Shown piece by piece: positions 4,771 to 24,264 of a stretch of DNA of 35,743 bases; the first letter of the stretch is position 1; the number at the start of each line of letters is the position of its first letter. A model generated the notes under the pieces. The model was not told the DNA's origin, made no database searches, and was given only the letters and a program-made list of their open reading frames with translations. This stretch comes from a bacterium (GTDB lineage: Bacteria; Ratteibacteria; UBA8468; B48-G9; DTJG01), in contig JAOAAW010000195.1 of assembly GCA_026418655.1 (NCBI GenBank), forward strand, positions 1-35,743, read 5' to 3'. Made by a program: the position numbers and the translations under genes.

Positions 4771-5784
4771 ATGACAGAAAGAGAAAGATTGTTGAACTGC
4801 ATCGAACTCAAAGGAGATGGTGAGATATTTTCAAGTGTTTCAATTATACCGACTGTTTGGGATAACAATAAAGAATATTTTGAAAAAATACAGAAAGAAT
4901 GTCCAAATGTTCCAATTGGAGTTTCAAGGGATGAAACAAGGAGAGCAGGAAATAAAGTTAGAGATAAATGGGGTTGTCTGTGGATATATCCCCTTGACTA
5001 TCTTGATGGTCAGGTCATTGAGCATCCACTGGATAACTGGGAAAAATTAAAGGATTATAAACCACCTGACCCTGAAAAATATACTGACTGGGAAAAGGCA
5101 AAAAAAGATATAGAAGAAGCGAAGAGAAAAGGAAATTTTACTTCTGGCGGGGTTGACCATGGCTTTTTCTTTCTTCTTATCACATATCTTCGGGGTTTTG
5201 AAAATGCAATGATTGATTTTGCTGAAGGCAACAAAAACATCTTTAAATTGATAGAAATCATTGAGAATTACTGGCTTGGAGTGATAAAAAAATGGATTGA
5301 CATTGGTGTTGATATGATAGGTTTTGGAGATGATTTAGGTTTACAGACTTCTCTTCCAATGAGCCCGCAGGCATGGAGGAAATACATAAAACCATCCTAT
5401 ATGAAATTTTTCGGGCTTTGTCGTGATAACGGTGTTCACGCAGGCCTTCATACTGATGGCTGGATTGTTTCAATTATGGAAGACCTTATTGAATGCAGGT
5501 TAAGTGTGCTCAATCCACAGGATATGGTCAATGGAATTGATAATATAGAAAGATTGCTGAAAGGAAGGATCTGTATAGACCTTGATATTGACAGGCAGCA
5601 CATAACATATTCAGGAACACCTGAGGAAATTGACAGACATATCCTTAACTGTGTGAAACGACTTGGTTCAGAAAAGGGTGGATTGATTTTGAAGTTTGGC
5701 GCTTATCCTGGAACACCGGTTGAAAATATTGGAGCAGTTATTAAAGCATTTGAAAAATATCGTTATTACTGGGTGAAAAAATGA
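4771..5784 (+). CDS. Uroporphyrinogen decarboxylase (URO-D) family protein, probably not a true HemE
   Basis: GFGDDLGLQTSLPMSPQAWRKYIKPSYMKFF...HTDGWIVSIMEDLIE...LNPQDMVNGIDNIERLLKGRICIDLDIDRQ...GGLILKFGAYPGTP pattern of the UroD/methyltransferase superfamily; GAGG Shine-Dalgarno upstream. Confidence 0.85.
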   Translation: MTERERLLNCIELKGDGEIFSSVSIIPTVWDNNKEYFEKIQKECPNVPIGVSRDETRRAGNKVRDKWGCLWIYPLDYLDGQVIEHPLDNWEKLKDYKPPDPEKYTDWEKAKKDIEEAKRKGNFTSGGVDHGFFFLLITYLRGFENAMIDFAEGNKNIFKLIEIIENYWLGVIKKWIDIGVDMIGFGDDLGLQTSLPMSPQAWRKYIKPSYMKFFGLCRDNGVHAGLHTDGWIVSIMEDLIECRLSVLNPQDMVNGIDNIERLLKGRICIDLDIDRQHITYSGTPEEIDRHILNCVKRLGSEKGGLILKFGAYPGTPVENIGAVIKAFEKYRYYWVKK

Positions 5785-7487
5785 ATAAAATTATACTTTT
5801 TCTTTTCGGCCTGGTTTCAATGGTTTTCAGTCAAACAGATTTCGTAGAACCGATTTTCAATCTGGAAAAAATTATCAATGAACCCCTGGACACAAAGATT
5901 ATAAACACCAGTAAGAAAGAAAATATCGTAATTCAGGAAATTGAATTTACTTCTGAACACTATCAGGGAAAGCCAGTAAGAATTTATGGAATTATCGCTT
6001 TTCCTGAGGATGCAAAAACGTTGCCTGCAATCTTCTGGAGTCAGGCAGGAATGGCACCAGCAAATACTGGGATGCCAGAATTTTTTGCAAAAAGGGGATA
6101 TGTTTGCATGTGTATCACCCTGCCTCATTCTATCTGGAATCCAAATGTGGCATTCAATACAAAAAATCCTGAAGATGGGAATATGACACACTATGCCATA
6201 GCGCAGATGAGGGCGATTACATATCTGACCAGTATCCCGCAGGTCAATCCTGAAAGGATAGGTATTGGCGGGTCTTCTTATGGCGGCTTTTTTTCAACAT
6301 TGATTGCAGGCGCAGATCCAAGAATTAAATGTGGGATGTCATTTTTTGCTGGTGGAAATATGGCTTATGGAACGCATATCCCTCAGTTTACACAACTTCA
6401 ATCGCAACAGGATATTGAAATATGGAACAAAACAATAGACCCTGCATTGAGATTGAAATTCAAAAAGGTTCCTTTTTTATGGGGAATTGCAACAAATGAC
6501 AACTGGTTTTATTTGCCATCAGTTATTAAAACATATCAGGAATCCATAGGTGAAAAAAGGATGGCCATTGTACCCATGTGGGAACATGGTTTTCCTGAAG
6601 AAATTGATGAGCAGCTTTTTTCCTGGTTTGATATCTACCTGAAACAATCAAGAAAACCCTATAACAGGGTGTCAGAATTATCCATCAAAAGAAATGGGAA
6701 TAGACTTGTGGCTGCATGGGGTTTTAATGGTGAAAATAAAGTTAAAAGGGCAGAACTTGTCATAAGTTATGGAAAAGTTGCATTGTGGAAGTACTGGATA
6801 CATCGCAATTACATTGTCCTTCCTGCGAAAATCAAGGGAAATACTGCAACAGGTGAAATTCCTGTGGTAGAACCAGGCATTGAAATGCTTGTTTATGGAA
6901 ATATTATAGATGAAAATGAGGTTATGATATCTACTGTTCCTGTTCAGATAAAAGCAACTGATTATGGAATAAAAAAACCAAATTGTTCTACCAAATTCAA
7001 TCTTTTTCAGTGGAAGATTTTTGACCATAAAACAGAAATAAATTTCAGAAGGATGGGCTTTACAGCATTTACCTTTGATTATGAAACCAGAAAAAATGAC
7101 ATGCCATCGTTAAAGGTTGAGCCATCAAAAACAGGGAAAAAATCCCAGGTATTGCTCAAACTTCACCATGTCCCAGAGCATTCTCATAAACTCAAGATAT
7201 GGGTTAAAGCAGAAAAACCGACTGAAATAAATGTGAGTGTGAAAGCAGTACAATTGCCTGATTCACAATCAGAAATTGTAAAAAAACTCAGGAAACAAAC
7301 AGAAGATAACACGGTTCTGCCTGTTTATTCAAAAACATTTGCCATTGATGAGAAATGGAAATTGGTTGAGGTTGATTGCCAGTATAATAATGAAGACATT
7401 GAAGGATATAATCTTTTGATTTCATCAGGTCAGCAGGTGCCTTACTGGATAAACAGTATCATTTTTGAGCCGGTATGGAAAAAATAA
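5781..7487 (+). CDS. Secreted alpha/beta hydrolase (acetyl-xylan-esterase/prolyl-oligopeptidase-like) with C-terminal beta-rich extension
   Basis: Signal peptide MNKIILFLFGLVSMVFSQ; nucleophile elbow GIGGSSYGGFFSTLIAG; candidate acid in GIATNDNW; candidate His in MWEHGFP. ATGA overlap with the upstream gene. Confidence 0.82.
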   Translation: MNKIILFLFGLVSMVFSQTDFVEPIFNLEKIINEPLDTKIINTSKKENIVIQEIEFTSEHYQGKPVRIYGIIAFPEDAKTLPAIFWSQAGMAPANTGMPEFFAKRGYVCMCITLPHSIWNPNVAFNTKNPEDGNMTHYAIAQMRAITYLTSIPQVNPERIGIGGSSYGGFFSTLIAGADPRIKCGMSFFAGGNMAYGTHIPQFTQLQSQQDIEIWNKTIDPALRLKFKKVPFLWGIATNDNWFYLPSVIKTYQESIGEKRMAIVPMWEHGFPEEIDEQLFSWFDIYLKQSRKPYNRVSELSIKRNGNRLVAAWGFNGENKVKRAELVISYGKVALWKYWIHRNYIVLPAKIKGNTATGEIPVVEPGIEMLVYGNIIDENEVMISTVPVQIKATDYGIKKPNCSTKFNLFQWKIFDHKTEINFRRMGFTAFTFDYETRKNDMPSLKVEPSKTGKKSQVLLKLHHVPEHSHKLKIWVKAEKPTEINVSVKAVQLPDSQSEIVKKLRKQTEDNTVLPVYSKTFAIDEKWKLVEVDCQYNNEDIEGYNLLISSGQQVPYWINSIIFEPVWKK

Positions 7488-12462: not shown

Positions 12463-12490
12463 ATTCTATCCCATGCAGGATTTTTGTCAA
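12463..12490 (-). promoter_or_regulatory. Sigma-70-like promoter for the tolC-like/lpxB/msbA run
   Basis: Minus strand TTGACA-(16)-TAGAAT, about 50 nt upstream of the tolC-like ATG. Confidence 0.65.
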
Positions 12491-12591: not shown

Positions 12592-12867
12592 TTACTTTCT
12601 GATAGAATTAGAAATTTTTCTTCTTATACCCGGAAAAACTACCAGAACAGGTATCGCAAATATCATTCCTGCCAGCAAAATGCCTGTTGCGATGGAAAGA
12701 TGTGCAAAAACATATGCTGGCATAAGAATGATTCTTGTTAAACTCTGCAAAATCCCATTTTCTGCAATAAATTGTGCTATTACCGGAGAATGTTTATAGT
12801 AAAATCTAACAAATGCCTTTCCCGGTTTTGGCTGTATATCCTTGATTATTTTTCGTATGCCTGTATC
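12592..12867 (-). pseudogene. Start-less reading frame encoding a partial CFI-box-CTERM-like domain (or -1 frame extension of the 997-aa protein)
   Basis: Minus-strand frame: DTGIRKIIKDIQPKPGKAFVRFYYKHSPVIAQFIAENGILQSLTRIILMPAYVFAHLSIATGILLAGMIFAIPVLVVFPGIRRKISNSIRK*. PGKAFVRFYYKHSPVIAQFIAENGILQSLTR matches the second half of CFI-box-CTERM domains as I remember them. No ATG/GTG/TTG start upstream of the homology; overlaps the end of the 12846..15839 CDS in the -1 frame. Confidence 0.7.
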
Positions 12868-15839
12868 TCAGCCACATAAAGGCCCTTTGTTACAATTAGG
12901 CGAATACTTGATGTTTTAATCTGTGGAAAGGTGTGAACTACTTTTTCTTTTTTATTGCCGGTGTTTTTAAGAAGGGTGGTCCAATTCTTCCCCTGCTGAT
13001 ACTGGATTTCATAGTCAGAAAGGACATTGACAGGGTCAGGATAGTACCTTGGAAGCCAGGATATCATTTCTATCCTTCCTATGGTCACTTCTTCCGGGAA
13101 ATCTATCTGTAACCAGTCATTTTTCCAGGTTTCCTTCAATCTTTTTATCCAGATTTCATCATCTTCTCTCACTGGTCCAGCATTTGGTCCCCATCTTCTT
13201 GTAAACCAGCAGGTTCTTATATCACCATCAATCGCAAAGACAGGAGAATCCTTAAAACTGTGGTATGTCCAGCTGGATGAAATCTTTGCACCATTTCCTT
13301 CCCAGCAGAGATTCTTCGGGTTTTTATCTTTTTTGGGCTCACTGGCAAAAAGTGGGTCTTTCAACATTTTTTCCATTATCAGGGTGCCTTTTGAAATATC
13401 TCTATCAGTGTAAATATGGACACCAAAAGGTTCAAAAGTATCAGTAAAACAATTTTTTTGCAAGGTCAATGAACGGTTTTCTGAAACAACATTCAGGATT
13501 TTTATGTTTTTGCCTTTCAGAGAAAAACGCGCTGTTGATTTTTGTGGAGAATCATTTGCAGCAATAATAAAAACATTGTTCAGATGTTTCAGAATTTTTG
13601 TTGAGATTTTTTCATTATTAACAGAAACAACCGTATCTGGTTTTTCTTCTGAAACAAGTATATCATGAAGATAGTTCATTTCGCCTGCCAGTGCCCGCAA
13701 CATCTCCCATGCAGCAGGATTAAGATTGGGATTGGCATAATCATGAAACCATGACCAGAACAGAAATCCTTTAGCGCCTTCTATAATTGAACGATAGACA
13801 GTATACCGTTGCTCTTTTAGATAGGGCATCCTTCCAGGGAATATCTCACCGGGGTGAAACCTTTGTTCCCATGCTCTCATATCAAATATTTGAGGATCAA
13901 CCCAGACAGGCTGTTTAGTCCCGCCTATCTCAACTGCTGCCTTCACCTTTTCTATAACTCCCATAAGACGTCTTGAGTTCAAATCCGGGTTATCATAATT
14001 TGGATAGAGATAAGGATTTATTCCAAGGATGTCATTAAAAGAACGGAATATCTCCTGATAATATGCACCGGGACTTGTAACTACTGGTGTTACAGGATGA
14101 TACGGGTCTATTTTCTTCATTTTCTGGTATCCTTTTATAAGCCCTTCCAATGACCAGTTTGGATGTATCTCAGGTTCATCTCCAAAGAAGTAAGCCAGAA
14201 GAACAGGGCTGTTTTTCAATCTTTCAACTGTTTTCAATCCATCTTCAAGATATTTTTCCTTTTCCTTGATACACCATGGTTCCCAGACATTGAAATCATA
14301 ACAAAATAGTTTCAGGTTCCTTTTTGATAGCTCTTTCAGCCATGTTTCATCGGATGAAGTATCAGAAATAGTGTTAAATCCAGCAGAAGCAATGGCATCA
14401 AGGTCTCCTGTTTTGGCTGTCCAGGGATTTACTCCATGAAGACCGATAGGGAAAAATCTCTTTCCGTTTACAACAAGGACTCCATCTTCAGCAATTCTTA
14501 CTTCACTGGGTGAAGCCGGGTATCGGAAAAAGCTTATATGGTTTTCATCAATCTTTTTGCCTTCAAGAAAAAGAGACACATTTAGGGTGTATTGTCCGTA
14601 TGGGAAATTTTTTGTGTCAAAGGCAATGGAATTACCTGATGTTCTCATTGGAGATAATTTTTCTTTTTCCAACAATTTTTTCTCATCTTTGTCAATGACA
14701 GCATAACTATACTTCAATTTCTTCAACAGCGATTCGTCGCAGTTGATATTAAGGATGGCTCGCAAAACTTTGTCTTTCATTGTAGCGTAGAATGCATTCC
14801 TGTATGATGGATATTTTAATATAAGATTTGAGACAGTGCTCTGTGAGGAAATAGTTTTCCAGAATATTTTTAATGGCTCATCCGTCTGGTTTTTTATCTG
14901 AACGCAAACCTGATATCTATCTGGAGCAGCACCTGTAAACGGGATTGAAAAATACATTGCTTTTCCTGGTTCCATAAATATCTTTTTCTTTTCCTGGTAG
15001 GTTTTTCCTGTGGTCGTGGAAAAGATGTTTATTGTAAGATTGTTTTCCTGTTTCTTTCCGCTCATGTTGTGTATTTTCCCCTTCACCTGCACAACCTGCT
15101 GTCCATCTGCTGTAAGGAATCCTTCTGCCTTGAGATCTTCCACAGTATAGCAATACTTTGAAAAATCCACATTAAGCCCGAGAATCACACCAAATTTCTC
15201 TGGAATATGAAATCCATCTATTGTCGGAAACGCCTGACTTAAAGAATCCGCAAAACCAGGCATATTTCTACAAAAGTTAATGCCCCATATCGAACCTGTT
15301 TCTGGCGTGATATCAAAAATTGCATAGGGAAGAGCCATTTCAAGATACCAGGCATTCTTATCAATCTTTGTTTTCAATGGAAATTCAGCATTCCATTCCG
15401 CATTATATACACTGCCTGCCCTGTAGCCAAATGCATCGTAGTATACACCATTGCTATTAATCATAAAATGATAATAGTCAGATTTGGTTCTTCCGGGGTC
15501 AATAAAAATTTCAACACTATCATCCAAGCAAATTTCCTGGTCTCTTTTTGTACAGGTCGTTTTCATCTTTGAGATGTCTGGATGCCTGCATTCAAAAGCA
15601 ATATACAGAGCATTATCATCATAAAGTAGATACACAGTAGTCCATTGTTTTGAAATTGGTTTACCCTTTAATGTAACAAATGTGTCAATTTTTGCAGCAT
15701 TTTTCCATAGTTCTTCAAGATCGCCATCAATAACAGGTGGTTTATGTGTTTTTATTGCCCTGACAATATTTTCTTCTGTCGCAGCAAATATTCTAAAGGT
15801 AGATAAAAGAAACAACACAGCCACAATTATCCTGAACAT
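12846..15839 (-). CDS. Secreted multidomain glycoside-hydrolase-like protein: CBM9/DOMON-like N-terminus, TIM-barrel glycosidase-like core, F5/8 type C-like C-terminus
   Basis: Signal peptide MFRIIVAVLFLLSTFRIFAA; CBM9-like KPPVIDGDLEELWKNAAKID...LYDDNALYIAFECRHPD...DDSVEIFIDPG...YHFMINSNGVYYDA; core FFPIGLHGVNPW...AYFFGDEPEIHPNW...GAKGFLFWSWFHDYANPNLNP; C-terminal AIDGDIRTCWF...WLQIDFPEEVTIGRIEM...SSIRLIVTKGLYVAEIQAYEK. Confidence 0.82.
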   Translation of the reverse strand: MFRIIVAVLFLLSTFRIFAATEENIVRAIKTHKPPVIDGDLEELWKNAAKIDTFVTLKGKPISKQWTTVYLLYDDNALYIAFECRHPDISKMKTTCTKRDQEICLDDSVEIFIDPGRTKSDYYHFMINSNGVYYDAFGYRAGSVYNAEWNAEFPLKTKIDKNAWYLEMALPYAIFDITPETGSIWGINFCRNMPGFADSLSQAFPTIDGFHIPEKFGVILGLNVDFSKYCYTVEDLKAEGFLTADGQQVVQVKGKIHNMSGKKQENNLTINIFSTTTGKTYQEKKKIFMEPGKAMYFSIPFTGAAPDRYQVCVQIKNQTDEPLKIFWKTISSQSTVSNLILKYPSYRNAFYATMKDKVLRAILNINCDESLLKKLKYSYAVIDKDEKKLLEKEKLSPMRTSGNSIAFDTKNFPYGQYTLNVSLFLEGKKIDENHISFFRYPASPSEVRIAEDGVLVVNGKRFFPIGLHGVNPWTAKTGDLDAIASAGFNTISDTSSDETWLKELSKRNLKLFCYDFNVWEPWCIKEKEKYLEDGLKTVERLKNSPVLLAYFFGDEPEIHPNWSLEGLIKGYQKMKKIDPYHPVTPVVTSPGAYYQEIFRSFNDILGINPYLYPNYDNPDLNSRRLMGVIEKVKAAVEIGGTKQPVWVDPQIFDMRAWEQRFHPGEIFPGRMPYLKEQRYTVYRSIIEGAKGFLFWSWFHDYANPNLNPAAWEMLRALAGEMNYLHDILVSEEKPDTVVSVNNEKISTKILKHLNNVFIIAANDSPQKSTARFSLKGKNIKILNVVSENRSLTLQKNCFTDTFEPFGVHIYTDRDISKGTLIMEKMLKDPLFASEPKKDKNPKNLCWEGNGAKISSSWTYHSFKDSPVFAIDGDIRTCWFTRRWGPNAGPVREDDEIWIKRLKETWKNDWLQIDFPEEVTIGRIEMISWLPRYYPDPVNVLSDYEIQYQQGKNWTTLLKNTGNKKEKVVHTFPQIKTSSIRLIVTKGLYVAEIQAYEK

Positions 15840-15851
15840 CTCGTCCCCCGG

Positions 15852-17954
15852 TTAATTTCTTTCGGCTGACAAAAGTGAAAGTGCGGCAAAAACAGGTCCC
15901 TGTGTCATTCCGCCACCTTCACATGTTGACCAGCCAATTGAATAGCCATTGCCATAACCATCAACATCAAAACCACGAAAATAGGGATAATCATTTCCAA
16001 GGCCAGGCACTTCAATTCCTCTTAATCCAAGCGGCATAAATCCTGGAATTTGTTTCAGCCCTGACTTATTATCAAAAAGGTCAGCCAGATGTTGTGATGA
16101 ACTTCTGTATCCTGAACCGCCCATAAAACTGACACCCACTGGGTTCCTTCCAAAGAGCCATTGTATCTGGCGTTCTGCGATTTTTGTATATCTATGCGTT
16201 TTCAGGATTCTGTTTGCAAGAAAACAGACAATTGCGACATATCCAAAATAGGCATTTGTTCCATGTCCATTTATGGCAGTGACAAGGTTTCTGGGTCTGA
16301 CTTTTTTGTACTCCATCATGTGTCCAAAAGGAGAACATCCTGTCAGTCGCTCTATCCAGGGCATAAATCTCTTGTAGGAATTTTCTATTTTTTTCCGTAA
16401 AGGATCGTCCGGAAATATTTCTGCATATTCAAACAGGGCAATCTGCGGATAAAACCCTGCAAGGTATATGGCACTTGCTTCAATTCCACTAGCAGGAAAA
16501 AATCCATCTTTTTCCTGATAATTTAAAATTCTTTCAATATGTATTCTGGCTTCTTCTCTGTATTCTTCACTTCCAGTGTAGTGCGCTATATTAAGGGCAC
16601 TCAGGGCAAGTGTTCCATATACGCTGACTGTAAAATTCTCACCGGCGTCCGGACTTTTGTAGAAGTTGTGCATTTTTATTGCTGCATCAATACATTTTTC
16701 TGCGTTTTTGGGTTCCTGCTGTTTTACCATAATGGCAAACTTTGCAATCGCTGCTGCAAAAAGTCGTGTGTACCAGGGTATCCAGGTGCTTTTATCAGGA
16801 TGTCTGTAATAGTGATGAATCTTTGGGTCTGAATATGCAAGATACATCTGTGTCAGGAAAAATCTGCCATCTTCTGCCTGCTTAATGCCAGAGACATGAG
16901 TGCTGACATTCGCATTTCCTCTTTCATCCACCGCGCTCAAAAAAAATTCCACTGTATAACGCGCCTCCTCCAGAGCATCTGGCAAAGGTCCACCTAAAAA
17001 AAACCATTTTCTTGGTGCGAGCCAGTGTCCGAGAAGTAAACAATAAAGATTTGTAACTATATTGGTACTATGACGTTCCCAGTTTCCGCCATCGTGCCAG
17101 CCCTTTGTTATTTTTGCTGGTTCATTAAGTTTCACAAGATTATCTTCATCAGGAGCATGCCAGTTTTTGCAGCCAGGTGCTGGTTGATAAAGAATTGGTC
17201 CATCATTGCAGCCATTCCTCCATGGAAGTTTTTGGCCGCAACGGTGATTGAAAAAACCCTGTAATGAAAGCCGTAACATTTTCAGATAAACATTTTTATT
17301 TATATCAAATTGATGGCTTTCTGCTTTTGTCCCATCAGGAAAATATACCCTTAAAAGGTATGTGCCATCTTTTTTTATTGAAGAAAAATCAGCAGTCCAC
17401 CAGTATCTTTTCCAGGCATATGCTCTGTGTCTTTTCATGGTTCCACAATAAACCTTTTTTCCTGTTATAGTGTTCAGAACCACAAATTTACCACAAGGGT
17501 AGTCCTTAAGTGTCCATATCACAACGCTTTTTTCAGATTCAGGATGATAACCAATCTGACAATCCTTGAATGCAACCGGCTCTTTTCCAAGAAATTCATC
17601 ATACTCTGCGGTTATACTTATATCTACACCTGATTGTTCAAGTTCTTCCACTGCCCTCAAAATTTTTAGTGCCTCTCTGTTTCGGGGTGCCTTTTTAAGT
17701 ACCTTTTCGCAATACTGTTTGCAATTTACCAGAAAATATGGTGAATTTAATACTTTAGATTTATGATAATCCACAAGGGCATGTAGCAGATTGCCTTCAA
17801 CACTGTTTGGGTCTTCAAGGCATATGGTTCTTGCTGCCAGCCATGCACGGTTATAATCATTTTTTTCTAAAAATTTAATACCTTCATTCCAGGCGTTTTT
17901 TATTCTGAGTGGCTTTGCTTCATATGTTTTCATAAACTTTATCTCTTCAACCAT
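15852..17954 (-). CDS. Glycoside hydrolase family 9-like protein (TPR-like N-terminus, Ig-like linker, GH9 catalytic-type domain), no signal peptide
   Basis: CQIGYHPESEKSVVIW (cellulase N-terminal Ig-like), SLQGFFNHRCGQKLPW, KGWHDGGNWERHSTNIVTNLYCLLLGHWL, WLFGRNPVGVSFMGGSGYRSSSQHLADLF, WSTCEGGGMTQGPVFAALSLLSAERN. TGATG overlap with the upstream CDS. Confidence 0.82.
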   Translation of the reverse strand: MVEEIKFMKTYEAKPLRIKNAWNEGIKFLEKNDYNRAWLAARTICLEDPNSVEGNLLHALVDYHKSKVLNSPYFLVNCKQYCEKVLKKAPRNREALKILRAVEELEQSGVDISITAEYDEFLGKEPVAFKDCQIGYHPESEKSVVIWTLKDYPCGKFVVLNTITGKKVYCGTMKRHRAYAWKRYWWTADFSSIKKDGTYLLRVYFPDGTKAESHQFDINKNVYLKMLRLSLQGFFNHRCGQKLPWRNGCNDGPILYQPAPGCKNWHAPDEDNLVKLNEPAKITKGWHDGGNWERHSTNIVTNLYCLLLGHWLAPRKWFFLGGPLPDALEEARYTVEFFLSAVDERGNANVSTHVSGIKQAEDGRFFLTQMYLAYSDPKIHHYYRHPDKSTWIPWYTRLFAAAIAKFAIMVKQQEPKNAEKCIDAAIKMHNFYKSPDAGENFTVSVYGTLALSALNIAHYTGSEEYREEARIHIERILNYQEKDGFFPASGIEASAIYLAGFYPQIALFEYAEIFPDDPLRKKIENSYKRFMPWIERLTGCSPFGHMMEYKKVRPRNLVTAINGHGTNAYFGYVAIVCFLANRILKTHRYTKIAERQIQWLFGRNPVGVSFMGGSGYRSSSQHLADLFDNKSGLKQIPGFMPLGLRGIEVPGLGNDYPYFRGFDVDGYGNGYSIGWSTCEGGGMTQGPVFAALSLLSAERN

Positions 17955-20900
17955 CAGTAAACCTCCAGCTCTGAAAGGTATAATCCTTTCTTTACAACGA
18001 GCCGGACTTTTGAAGTGGTAAGCGATGGCAAGGCCAGTGTTATTGTTTCATTTGTATTTCCTGTGATACTCTTGACAGGTTTCCATTCTTTATCATCCCA
18101 TGCTTCTATGTCAAAATCAGATAAAACACAGTCAGGGTCCGGCCAATATCTTGGTTTATAAGAACGAATTACAATCTTGCTTATTTTTTTAGGTTCAGGA
18201 AATTCCACCTCAAGCCACTCAGGAGTTTTACCTGCCGGACTGACAAAGGATGGACTGAGTTTACCGTCATAAAGGGGGAACCAGCAAGTATCAGGGTCTC
18301 CATCAATGGCAAAATTACAATGTGGATACCATGTGTAATTCCTACTGCTTTTTGCCTTTGAGCCATTCTGGCTGGCTGCGATATTGCCGGGTTTGGCTCT
18401 ATAGTCAATGGATGACATAAAAAATGCGTCAGAAAGGAATTTTTCCATTATTGTGTCACCGGGTTTTTCTGTGGTGTAAATATGGACATCAAGGGGCTTG
18501 AACATGTCGGTGAACATGCCATTTTTTACTGCAATACTTCTTTTTTCTGACCAGACAAACAGTTGTGAAATGCCTTTATCTTTCAGCTCAAATGAAATTT
18601 CCTTGTTTTGTGCACCGTGATAAACCGCTATTACATAAAGGTTTTTGCCATACCTTCTTGATGAAATGCTCAATTTTTCACAAGATACTACCTCGTCATT
18701 TGTCTCTGGCTGAACCAGGACTTTTTCAAGGGAGCGGACTTCATTTCCTAAGGCGCGAACTGCTTCCCAGAGTTTTGGATTCATTCTTGGATTTGTATAG
18801 TCATGGAAATATGCCCAGAAAAGAATTCCTTTTGCCCCCCTTGCTATGGCAGCCCATACCTGGTTTCGTATTTCACAAAGCGTGAGAAACCTGCCATAAC
18901 CACTATAACCACTGCCTCTTGCCCAGTGTCCACCATAAAAATATTGTGGCCAGAGCCACCACGGTTTTTTGCCTGTGGAAAGTTTGGGACCAGGGAAATC
19001 TTTGTCAATCTTACCATTGGCAATCTCTATCATTGAGCTGCATCTATCAGCGGTTGTCAAAAACTTTTTCGCAAGTATGTCCTGGTCATCACCATACATA
19101 GGGTATGGATAGAGGTGATTCATCATAATGTCTGAAATGTAATAAAGGGATGTATACCCTCTAAAACTACCATTCATAGCGAAAGGATGATAGGGATCAA
19201 GCAAACTGGTTTGCTCGTACAATGCAACATATTCCTGCTGCCAGACGAGTTCTTCACCCCACAGATAACACAGAAGGGCAGGGTGATTTTTGAATTCTTC
19301 TACCTTCCCTTTTGCTTTTTGAAAAAGTTTCTCCTTCTGTTCTTTTGAAACAGTTTTTGACAGGGTGTTGGCTAAAGAATCAAGCAGGACAATTTTTATT
19401 CCAAGTTTGTATGCTTCATCCATAAAATCTTTGTTTACATCAAAAGCAGTGGTAACATTGAATCCTGCCTGAGCGAACATTTGAAGGTCTTCTTTTGTTC
19501 CTGTATTTCCATGGACACCTATCGGGAAAAACGGCTTTTCATCCACAAGAATATTACCATCTGTATCTATTCTTACTGTCTGTGGTTTTGTCTCAATATA
19601 TCTGAAATCGGTTTTTGCCCTGTCTATGACATTTCCTTTTAAATCAATGATATTCACCAATATTTCATAAACTCCGTACTTCAATCCAGAAACAGGGAAC
19701 TTCAGAATATTTTCAGTGTCAGGCGTTATTTCCTGTAAAAATTTTATTCGGGTATCATCCGATAATTTCAGGCCTGCCTGTAATTTTAGTTTTTTTGTTA
19801 CTGACTCTTTTGTGTCAAGGGTTATTTTTATTCTGACTTCCTTATCTTTCTGGGTTGAGAATACTATTTTCTTGTAGGAAGGGTTCAGCATTTCAATATC
19901 CGTTGCACTTGGATTGCGCAAGGAAACAAACCTCTGCCCGATTCTATTTCCTTTTTCATCAAGAATATTAAACCTGCATATAAATTCGCCTTCAATACAG
20001 GGTATCCCGACATCTTTATTGAATTCAATTTCATCTTCAGATACTAACAGAACATCCTGTTTTTCAATGTATTCCTTTCCAGAAGGGTCTTTAACGAAAA
20101 AATGTATCTGACCTGGCATAGATTTATGACAGATTAAACTGCCTTTGAAATTCAGAAATAGTCCATCTTCTGAAAGAACAGGGTTTATTTTCAGGTTTTT
20201 CACAAAAACAGAGGAAGGACTGATTATTGAAAGTGAATTTCCAATCAAACTATTGGAATCCTGTCCAGATGTTTTCTGCCAGGTGGCAAGGTCTCCTGTG
20301 GCTGCAAGTGAACTTTCAAGCCACGAACCACCGACCATCTCTTGAGATTGCCATCTGCTCACGATTGTTTCAGGCGAAAACACATTTTCATCACTGAATA
20401 GATTGACATCTCCATAAATTGCAATTGCCTGATTGCAGTTTAGAAAAAGGTTATGGATGATTAAAACATCTGTTTTTCCATAACCTCCGGTCAGAGTTAT
20501 TGCGTCTTTTGTTTCTCTGAAGATATTGTTCTGGACTGTGAAGGTTCCATTGGCAAAGGAAATTCCGTTTCCAATACATTCATTATACTCAAAAACTATT
20601 TTCTGTCCGGCGTCCAAAGGATATGTAGTAAAGGCAACAGGATTATGTTTGAAAATGTTGTTTTTTACAACAGGTACAGGACTGTTTTTGTAAACACGCA
20701 GATACACCCCGGCATTTTTGTTTTCATAAATCTTGTTGCCAATAATGGTACCTCCTCCTTCAAGACAAATACCATTATTTCCACATTGAAATACTTCTGA
20801 GTTCTTTATGGTCCAGTTACCGGGTCCCTGGATGCCTGAAAGAAATGCGTAGTTACTGGCAGGATAATTATTGTGGACCCGACAATTCTCTATGATACAG

Positions 20901-21550
20901 TAATTTCCGCCGGTGCTGATTATGTTTGTCTGTGCATTTTTACATTCTAAATTTATAAGATGATTGTAATTGCCTGCAACAGAAAAACAACTTTTTCTCC
21001 GGATACGAACAACAGAATTTTCAAGGAGGGTACCTTCAGATGGATTTATATGCAAAATAACCCTGTTTTCTTCCTTTTTTATTTCACAAAACCAGGAACC
21101 TTTTGATGCTTGAAGTTCTGTAAAATTATTTTTTTCCTGCAATTGTTTTCCATTCAACCACACGCCAGCAAGCCCTGTGTTTGTGTCTCTTACTGAAACT
21201 CCTGGAATATCAACATTCCATATTCCAGAGGCATCTATTTTAATTGCTTTTGATGGAATCTCACTTTCTCCATCTATGACAACACTTCCTTCTCCTTGAA
21301 AAACAATTGGTTGCTCTTTTGTTCCTGATACATTAAGAAAAATCTGTTCCTCATAAATTCCCTGCTGTATCAAAACAATATCACCTGGTTTGACAATATC
21401 TGCTGCCTTTTGGATTGTTCTGAATGCACCAGTAGATGTGTTTTCTTTACCGCCCGACAGGTCTGAACCATCAGTCCTTACAAAATAAGTATCGCATTCT
21501 GCAAGATTAAAAAAACCAAAGATCAGTATGACAAACTTTATTATGAGCAA
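17954..21550 (-). CDS. Secreted multidomain protein: right-handed parallel beta-helix N-terminus, TIM-barrel glycosidase-like core, F5/8 type C-like C-terminus (true start probably upstream, AUU at 21568)
   Basis: DTYFVRTDGSDLSGGKENTSTGAFRTIQKAADIVKPGDIVLIQQGIY (pectate-lyase-like); repeated NxIxxN rungs; core FFPIGVHGNTGTKEDLQMFAQAGFNV...GAKGILFWAYFHDYTNPRMNP; C-terminal AIDGDPDTCWF...WLEVEFPEPKKISKIVIRSYKPRYWPDPDCVLSDFDIE. Confidence 0.82.
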   Translation of the reverse strand: MLIIKFVILIFGFFNLAECDTYFVRTDGSDLSGGKENTSTGAFRTIQKAADIVKPGDIVLIQQGIYEEQIFLNVSGTKEQPIVFQGEGSVVIDGESEIPSKAIKIDASGIWNVDIPGVSVRDTNTGLAGVWLNGKQLQEKNNFTELQASKGSWFCEIKKEENRVILHINPSEGTLLENSVVRIRRKSCFSVAGNYNHLINLECKNAQTNIISTGGNYCIIENCRVHNNYPASNYAFLSGIQGPGNWTIKNSEVFQCGNNGICLEGGGTIIGNKIYENKNAGVYLRVYKNSPVPVVKNNIFKHNPVAFTTYPLDAGQKIVFEYNECIGNGISFANGTFTVQNNIFRETKDAITLTGGYGKTDVLIIHNLFLNCNQAIAIYGDVNLFSDENVFSPETIVSRWQSQEMVGGSWLESSLAATGDLATWQKTSGQDSNSLIGNSLSIISPSSVFVKNLKINPVLSEDGLFLNFKGSLICHKSMPGQIHFFVKDPSGKEYIEKQDVLLVSEDEIEFNKDVGIPCIEGEFICRFNILDEKGNRIGQRFVSLRNPSATDIEMLNPSYKKIVFSTQKDKEVRIKITLDTKESVTKKLKLQAGLKLSDDTRIKFLQEITPDTENILKFPVSGLKYGVYEILVNIIDLKGNVIDRAKTDFRYIETKPQTVRIDTDGNILVDEKPFFPIGVHGNTGTKEDLQMFAQAGFNVTTAFDVNKDFMDEAYKLGIKIVLLDSLANTLSKTVSKEQKEKLFQKAKGKVEEFKNHPALLCYLWGEELVWQQEYVALYEQTSLLDPYHPFAMNGSFRGYTSLYYISDIMMNHLYPYPMYGDDQDILAKKFLTTADRCSSMIEIANGKIDKDFPGPKLSTGKKPWWLWPQYFYGGHWARGSGYSGYGRFLTLCEIRNQVWAAIARGAKGILFWAYFHDYTNPRMNPKLWEAVRALGNEVRSLEKVLVQPETNDEVVSCEKLSISSRRYGKNLYVIAVYHGAQNKEISFELKDKGISQLFVWSEKRSIAVKNGMFTDMFKPLDVHIYTTEKPGDTIMEKFLSDAFFMSSIDYRAKPGNIAASQNGSKAKSSRNYTWYPHCNFAIDGDPDTCWFPLYDGKLSPSFVSPAGKTPEWLEVEFPEPKKISKIVIRSYKPRYWPDPDCVLSDFDIEAWDDKEWKPVKSITGNTNETITLALPSLTTSKVRLVVKKGLYLSELEVY

Positions 21551-21583
21551 ATTTTGGGTGATCTTAATTTTTTCCTCCTTTTT

Positions 21584-22330
21584 TCAAAGAACTAAATGTC
21601 CTGCTCGCACCCTGAATTTCTTAAATGCTTCTGCATATTTGACACCGATTTGTTTTCCATATTGTTCTGAAATTCTTATTGCCAGTTCATCAAATGCTTC
21701 CTTTCCGAGTTCCTCTACACTTTTTCTGTTTTCTGTGGTTTCTTTTTTTTGTATACCTCCCATTTCGATCTGACTTTTATGACAATAACAGGCATTCTTT
21801 TTTTTCTCAATATACCGCGTGATGTCTTCAAAATGGTTGGGTTTTTCTGTGTTATAGAAAAAGATTTCCTTTACAAAATGCGGTTCAATTCCATTCTTCA
21901 GATGTTCAGGATAAAAATGGGGAAAGCCGGCAAAAACAACTGCTTCTGCGGAGAGAATTCCCACTGTTCTGTGGTCAGGATGAACTTCATAAGGCAAAAA
22001 AGGATCAAGCGTCATTACAATATCTGGCTTAACCTGCCTGATAACCTTCATGATTTTTCCTCTTAATTTCAGGTCAGGATATAAAAAACCATCTTCTTCA
22101 CCAAGGAAAAAAACCTCTTTCACTCCAAGGACTCTCGCTGCTTCCAGTGTCTCTTTTTTCCTGATTTCAGCAAGTGTTTCAATATCAAGGTTTCTGTCAT
22201 ATGTTCCACGATTTCCCTTTGTGCATATAAGGTAAAAGATTTCACCCCCTTTATCCACATACTTTGCGATAGTCCCTCCGCAATAACATTCAGCATCGTC
22301 CGGATGCGCTTGAATGTTCAACAATTTCAT
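21584..22330 (-). CDS. PIG-L/LmbE family N-acetylglucosaminyl-type deacetylase
   Basis: LLNIQAHPDDAECYCGGTIAKY, CTKGNRGTYD, RKKETLEAARVLGVKEVFFLGEEDG, PDIVMTLDPFLPYEVHPDHRTVG. Confidence 0.93.
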   Translation of the reverse strand: MKLLNIQAHPDDAECYCGGTIAKYVDKGGEIFYLICTKGNRGTYDRNLDIETLAEIRKKETLEAARVLGVKEVFFLGEEDGFLYPDLKLRGKIMKVIRQVKPDIVMTLDPFLPYEVHPDHRTVGILSAEAVVFAGFPHFYPEHLKNGIEPHFVKEIFFYNTEKPNHFEDITRYIEKKKNACYCHKSQIEMGGIQKKETTENRKSVEELGKEAFDELAIRISEQYGKQIGVKYAEAFKKFRVRAGHLVL

Positions 22331-22393
22331 AGTAGTACTACGTGTCTGGGTGCCTCAATATTAAAATGGCAGTCCCTTTCCTTTACTGATTTT

Positions 22394-23122
22394 TCAAGGT
22401 ATATGTGGGTACCAATATTTATATAAAGCAGCAGCATCATACGGAATACCCAAATTATGGAAAGGAACCCCTTCAGCATGACCGTCGCAAAATAGAATAT
22501 TACTCACAGAATCATGGCCAGCCCTTGCTGAAGCATGAATGGTGAACCCTGGTGCCCAGAGAAGTGGGACTTTTTCCCAGTAAGGATTGTGAGCATACTC
22601 AAAAAGAAAAATTTTTGATGCAGGGTTTCTAACCCTGGCAAGTTTTCCTCCCCAGTTTACACCATTGGTTGCGCCAACATAGATCCCACCAATATCAGGT
22701 AACGCGAGATACATATTACTCACATACCTGACCTGGCTTGTTATTGCATTATAACCCGGGGGTGCATACCAATCACCCCACCAAGAAGTTCTTCGCGCCT
22801 TGGGACATTGAAAAATTTTCCATTGATTGTTTACATACAATGCAAGAGCCGAAAGATAGTTTGGTGCGGTCCGGACATCGTCGTTCCAGTAAGTCCAGAA
22901 GAAACTTGAATTCCCTGGATTTCCCAGTGGTGGAAGATAACCATTATTGTCTACCTCATACTGAGCCATTGCCAGCCCCAGCTGCTTCAGATTGGCAAGG
23001 CAAACAGCCTGTCTTGCTTTTTCTCTGGCACGGCTCAAGACAGGCAGAAGCATCGCTGCAAGTATGGCTATAATCGCAATTACCACAAGCAATTCAATGA
23101 GAGTGAATCCATTCTTTTTCAT
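22394..23122 (-). CDS. Type II/IV prepilin-like protein with H-X9-DG motif
   Basis: [65 protein letters not shown]...[16 protein letters not shown]. Start moved from the track's GTG (23131) to ATG at 23122, which has AAAGGAGGT at ideal spacing. Confidence 0.93.
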
Positions 23123-24264
23123 AACACCCACCTCCTTTCAAGATTTTGTAATGTTTGTTTTTTCTCTTCATGATCTTGAACAAAATCAGGGTCTGTGCTT
23201 TTTCTGACTACCAGTTCTGGCTTAATTTCTATGATAATTGATTTATCCTTTTGAATTTCATCTATCCCAAGAAGCAGTTTAAGGGATGCGCTTACAATTT
23301 TTTCTTTCGGTTGCCTTATTGTTGTAAGTAATACATCTGGCTTTGCTGCTTCTGGTGTATCATCAAAACCAGCAATGGCTAAATCCTGAGGGATTCTATA
23401 GCCATAGTTTTGAACCAGATTTTCAAGATAATAGATGGCAAAACAATCATAAGGCGTAAAACAAGCAGCTATTATATTTTTTTTCTCCAGTAGAAACTGA
23501 ACCCCATGGCTTATTGCAGGACCTTCGGGTGCTCCAAGAAACACCAAATCCTCGTTGAATACCTTATTCTTCTCAAGAAAATATCTGTAGGTATTGAATA
23601 TTCTTTTTCTCAATTCATTGCTGTCATCAATATAAGCAATACTGTGGTATCCCTTTGAAAACAGATGCTCCATCATCAAGGATGCTCCATAGACCTCATC
23701 AACTTTTACCTGCGTTGATGGCAGGTCAGTCCAGAAATCATTTATGATAACAAACTTCATTCCCAGTTCTACCAGTTTCTCTCTTATTTCTTCTTCTTTA
23801 GAAAGGATATTGGGAAATTTCAAAACATTTTTTATGCCTCTTTCTGCAAAACTCTGGATGAACATTTCCTCTCTTTCAATTTTATTGTCAGCATCAGCGA
23901 CTACAACATGGTAACCGATTTCGCCTGCCTGAAATATAATCTGTCTGAGAAATTCAACAAAAATAGGATTTCGCAGATGTGGGACAATAACCCCTATATC
24001 ATTCTTGCCATTTGTGGTTCCCCTGACAAAATTGCCAAGCCCCCATTTTTTCTCTATCAGTCCTTCTTCTTCAAGCTTTGCAAGTGCCCTTCGTACTGAA
24101 ATTAAACTCACATTGTAATTTTGTGCAAGGGTTCTTTCAGATATTAAAGGATCTCCGGGAAGGAGTTCACCTGTCTTTATTTTTTCTTTGATGTCAGCGA
24201 TAATGTGGTCTGTCTTAAAAACCCTCTTCAGGTCTAATCTGTTGCTTTTTTCGTCTTTAGCCAT
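23119..24264 (-). CDS. Transcriptional regulator: GntR-type winged HTH fused to a LacI/periplasmic-binding-protein-like sugar sensor domain
   Basis: [79 protein letters not shown]...[28 protein letters not shown]. Confidence 0.92.

Follow-up and report, generated by a model that had tools for sequence, protein, structure and literature searches.

The reading frame lying directly 3' of the gene for a 997-aa secreted protein is, we conclude, the relic of a separate CFI-box-CTERM surface-protein gene, left beside a neighbor that is itself intact. We put the probability of this reading at roughly 0.87. The frame (hereafter the tail) is on the reverse strand of the window, by which we mean the whole 35,743-nucleotide stretch of DNA that was analysed. 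It has partial homology to the family, the rest of the family protein is missing from it, and relatives do not have it at the orthologous position, as is expected of a gene relic. The features discussed are listed in Table 1.

Table 1. Positions in the window of the gene remnant, its neighbors and the flanking promoter.
Feature	Position	Strand	Evidence
5'-truncated CFI-box-CTERM gene remnant (distal half, hydrophobic segment, basic end)	12592..12845	(-)	NF041770, hydropathy, homology end at TAA
Segment matching CFI_box_CTERM positions 30-68 of 69	12715..12831	(-)	NF041770 match; box missing
997-aa secreted protein, intact; CBM9-like domain and C-terminal F5/8 type C domain	12846..15839	(-)	Pfam, orthologue, paralogue
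Lineage-specific cluster between pyrG and tail/tolC	12846..24264	(-)	Absent at this place in relatives; homologous in L079
tolC promoter TTGACA-16-TAGAAT; marks resumption of resident DNA after the remnant	12463..12490	(-)	Conserved in three genus relatives

The 997-aa frame terminates GCA TAC GAA AAA TAA, and the -1 frame across this end is open for 91 codons, from 12867 to a stop at 12592-12594, confirming both frames as given in the preliminary description of this DNA. The earliest in-frame ATG, GTG or TTG codons of the tail (a TTG in ILQ and an ATG in LMPAY) fall within the homologous stretch or beyond it. Therefore, the tail has no usable start, again as first described. The chance of an 88-codon open stretch is about 0.1-0.2%, whether estimated with a composition model or from the wrong frames of genes in the window. 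The stop-free length, together with the homology to CFI-box proteins, indicates that the tail is a former or present coding sequence. There is nothing unusual in the run of five A's before the stop: GAA AAA TAA likewise closes tolC, elsewhere in the window, and six A's precede the stop in three other genes.

A profile search with the tail translation identified a match to the NCBIfam family NF041770 (CFI_box_CTERM), in which residues 10-48 align to model positions 30-68 of 69 with a score of 42.1 bits (E 5.5e-11; the family cut-off is 40 bits). A resemblance to the distal half of CFI-box-CTERM had been proposed from the sequence alone, along with the absence of the CFIATAAYG box. Both are borne out, since the box is located at the start of the model and the match begins only at position 30. 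Pfam gave no match to the tail. The best tblastn match is a CFI-box protein of the genus relative G007 (46% identity over 76 aa, E 9e-18). When the tail is aligned to nine intact relatives, the box is present only in the relatives, and the residues that are invariant among the nine are kept in the distal conserved half (G.AFV..YY.HSP..A..I).

The tail thus shares with CFI-box-CTERM proteins the distal half (PGKAFVRFYYKHSP..IA.FI.....L..TRI.LMP), a hydrophobic segment that peaks at residues 55-78 (mean Kyte-Doolittle value of about 2.6 over 19 residues) and the basic residues that follow it (RRK..RK). It differs from them in lacking the box with its Cys, the Gly-rich linker, the signal peptide, the start codon and the passenger. 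The alignment to CFI-box relatives extends through to the C-terminus; thus, the tail corresponds to the 3' end of a CFI-box gene. It is not fused to a secreted passenger, as it lies in a frame of its own with a stop before it and no start upstream.

Across the class, NF041770 has 97 matches in 35 genomes, and 94 of the 97 start at model position 1-2, with the box present. The three matches that lack the box are this tail and two that are clipped by contig ends (G028:C290 and G031:C301). In the relatives, the layout is a secreted passenger, a Gly-rich linker, CFIATAA(F/Y)GS, a spacer of about 20 residues and PGRAFVR.YYRHSP, then a hydrophobic segment with basic residues after it. The genome that carries the window (83% complete) yielded no other CFI-box copy with the family model up to an E value of 1; a consensus query on the same genome gave one additional weak match (E 0.4).

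The neighboring gene is complete. Its product matches CBM9_1 (4e-13) and F5_F8_type_C (1e-8) in Pfam. A scan of GTDB genomes returned a single orthologue (L079, 5983-8982), which is 72% identical over residues 2-997; no orthologue was found in seven genus relatives, where the best identity is 25%. L079 belongs to genome G041, the CFI match list of which is that of G011 (same order, another family). The L079 protein terminates with …GLYVAEIRAYGK (AYGK), at the same codon as the 997-aa protein and without a run of five A's at the stop, and its gene is followed by 156 bases of unrelated DNA that contain no tail, then by another gene. The nucleotide alignment of the two genes holds 71% identity through the TAA inclusive and ends exactly there. 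A 1198-aa paralogue (17954-21550) closes two residues earlier, at the same place in the F5/8C domain. Given the shared stop codon and the end of homology at the TAA, the 997-aa gene is complete as read and the TAA is its native end. In L079, the counterpart of the 700-aa gene (5384-5971) comprises only the last ~185 residues (83% identical), and is a 5'-truncated remnant beside the 997-aa orthologue.

The preliminary description had instead assigned the tail to the 997-aa F5/8C protein, and had set a comparison of orthologues beforehand as the refuting test. In L079 the gene stops at the same codon and the DNA downstream of the F5/8C domain is unrelated; the assignment does not stand. One route to the proposed fusion was a homopolymer sequencing or assembly error, such that the true run is six A's and the tail continues in frame from the F5/8C protein. 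A single added A would indeed bring the two frames together. However, the L079 orthologue ends at the same codon with no tail beyond it, a run of five A's is short for an error of this kind, and the fused product would still be without the box carried by almost all class matches. We therefore regard such an error as highly improbable.

The other proposed route was programmed -1 frameshifting at AAAAA-TAA, with tRNA-Lys slipping on AAA while the stop codon occupies the A site, to give a minority membrane-anchored product. Re-pairing from AAA to AAA is possible on GAAAAATAA, and the tail frame is open and closes with a hydrophobic segment and basic residues, as an anchor might. Nevertheless, C GAA AAA is not an X XXY YYZ heptamer. 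Only the AAA in the P site can re-pair, as the preceding GAA would become CGA, and a tandem slippery site is therefore lacking. The downstream RNA folds no better than shuffled sequences (z = -0.07), the site is not conserved in L079, GAA AAA TAA is a common context given that it also ends tolC, and the product would again be without the Cys box. We give programmed slippage the least credence of the readings considered. Among the options originally listed for the junction, the deletion scar is thus the one supported, and neither the homopolymer error nor slippage survives the comparison.

The position of the tail is the exact edge of an 11.4-kb cluster, which encodes a GntR regulator, a pilin-like protein, a PIG-L deacetylase, and three large proteins related to carbohydrates, of 1198 aa (beta-helix/F5/8C), 700 aa and 997 aa. 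The cluster was not found beside pyrG in G001, G003 and G007 (the contigs of G002 and G005 end too soon to tell), nor beside tolC in G001, G002 and G003. A homologous cluster is present in L079 (GntR 63%, PIG-L 78% and the 997-aa protein 72% identical). As the cluster is missing beside pyrG in these relatives, it constitutes an island in this lineage. It is likely to have been transferred, and perhaps has a role in glycan use. The tolC promoter is kept upstream of tolC in G001, G002 and G003, and the neighbor upstream of tolC varies (a divergent flavodoxin gene in G001, an oxidoreductase in G002 and a divergent glycosyltransferase in G003).

Homology switches abruptly at the TAA, and the draft genome is fragmented into 215 contigs, as would fit a chimeric assembly in which two unrelated pieces were joined at the stop codon. 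Against this, the 131 bases across the junction have no second genomic copy that could mislead the assembly, and downstream of the junction lpxB/msbA and tolC, including the conserved promoter of tolC, are syntenic with relatives. A chimera is thus very unlikely.

We propose that the relic arose by loss of the 5' part of a CFI-box gene, either during insertion of the GntR-to-997 cluster upstream of tolC or afterwards, through a deletion at the cluster edge. The signal peptide, passenger domains and CFIATAAYG box of the parent gene would have been lost, leaving the last ~88 codons. The broken end would have been joined at the TAA of the 997-aa gene (12846-12848) or within about 20 bases after it, and the -1 relation of the tail to that gene would be a chance by-product of the join. 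We infer this order of events, and also that the tail yields no product that is used. The 5' part of the parent gene was not found in the same genome (83% complete), and neither a junction repeat nor an insertion element that could explain the break was identified.

Both negatives weigh against a relic, as does the remnant frame, which is still open through the hydrophobic segment and the basic end. The open frame implies a recent break or a constraint that still acts on it. A close homologue of the tail that would allow a test for selection was not found. The remnant could conceivably have been co-opted in this one species, through reinitiation at an inner start codon or a low rate of slippage at AAAAA-TAA, either giving a small membrane anchor without the box, but we consider this hardly probable. 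Continued translation of the tail would mean that a C-terminal anchor had been gained through a change of frame; nothing that we found supports this. One good orthologue was sufficient to resolve an apparent frameshifted fusion into a complete neighbor and a leftover tail. The relic reading keeps a false fusion of an F5/8C domain to a CFI-box anchor out of annotation.

A comparable scar is present in G007, where a CFI-box gene (L063, 3250-3933) has no signal peptide and its frame starts mid-domain. Over 173 aa it shares 73% identity with an internal portion of a 511-aa protein that is whole in G001. Like the tail, of which it is the closest relative, this gene has lost its front and is located close to genes found next to tolC in a relative; unlike the tail, it retains the CFI box and ~170 residues before it. 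It adjoins an oxidoreductase, a 97%-identical copy of which adjoins tolC in G002. These scars hint, short of proof, at a CFI-box gene that once resided close to tolC in the genus and suffered repeated truncation. Alternatively, the CFI-box gene may have arrived with the island; the data favor neither account over the other.

Among the papers searched, none names CFI-box-CTERM. Intact CFI-box proteins resemble MYXO-CTERM and GlyGly-CTERM sorting tags (PMC11980579, PMC3237569), which consist of a short motif, a hydrophobic helix and a basic end. Unlike these tags, the tail is without the motif part. The MYXO-CTERM motif contains an invariant cysteine (PMC11980579). By analogy, a sorting function without the Cys box is doubtful.

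In eight genes of relatives (L006, L007, L010, L011, L014, L015, L018 and L021) the segment made up of CFI box, hydrophobic stretch and basic residues lies inside the protein rather than at its C-terminus. Their open reading frames run on, past what resembles an internal signal peptide, for example KKGILILIAFSVLAVATPSFA, to a domain of ~270 aa, for which all Pfam matches are sub-threshold (DUF3187 and DUF5777), one of them to a beta-barrel family. The combination of a surface protein with an apparent outer-membrane barrel in a single open reading frame merits separate study.
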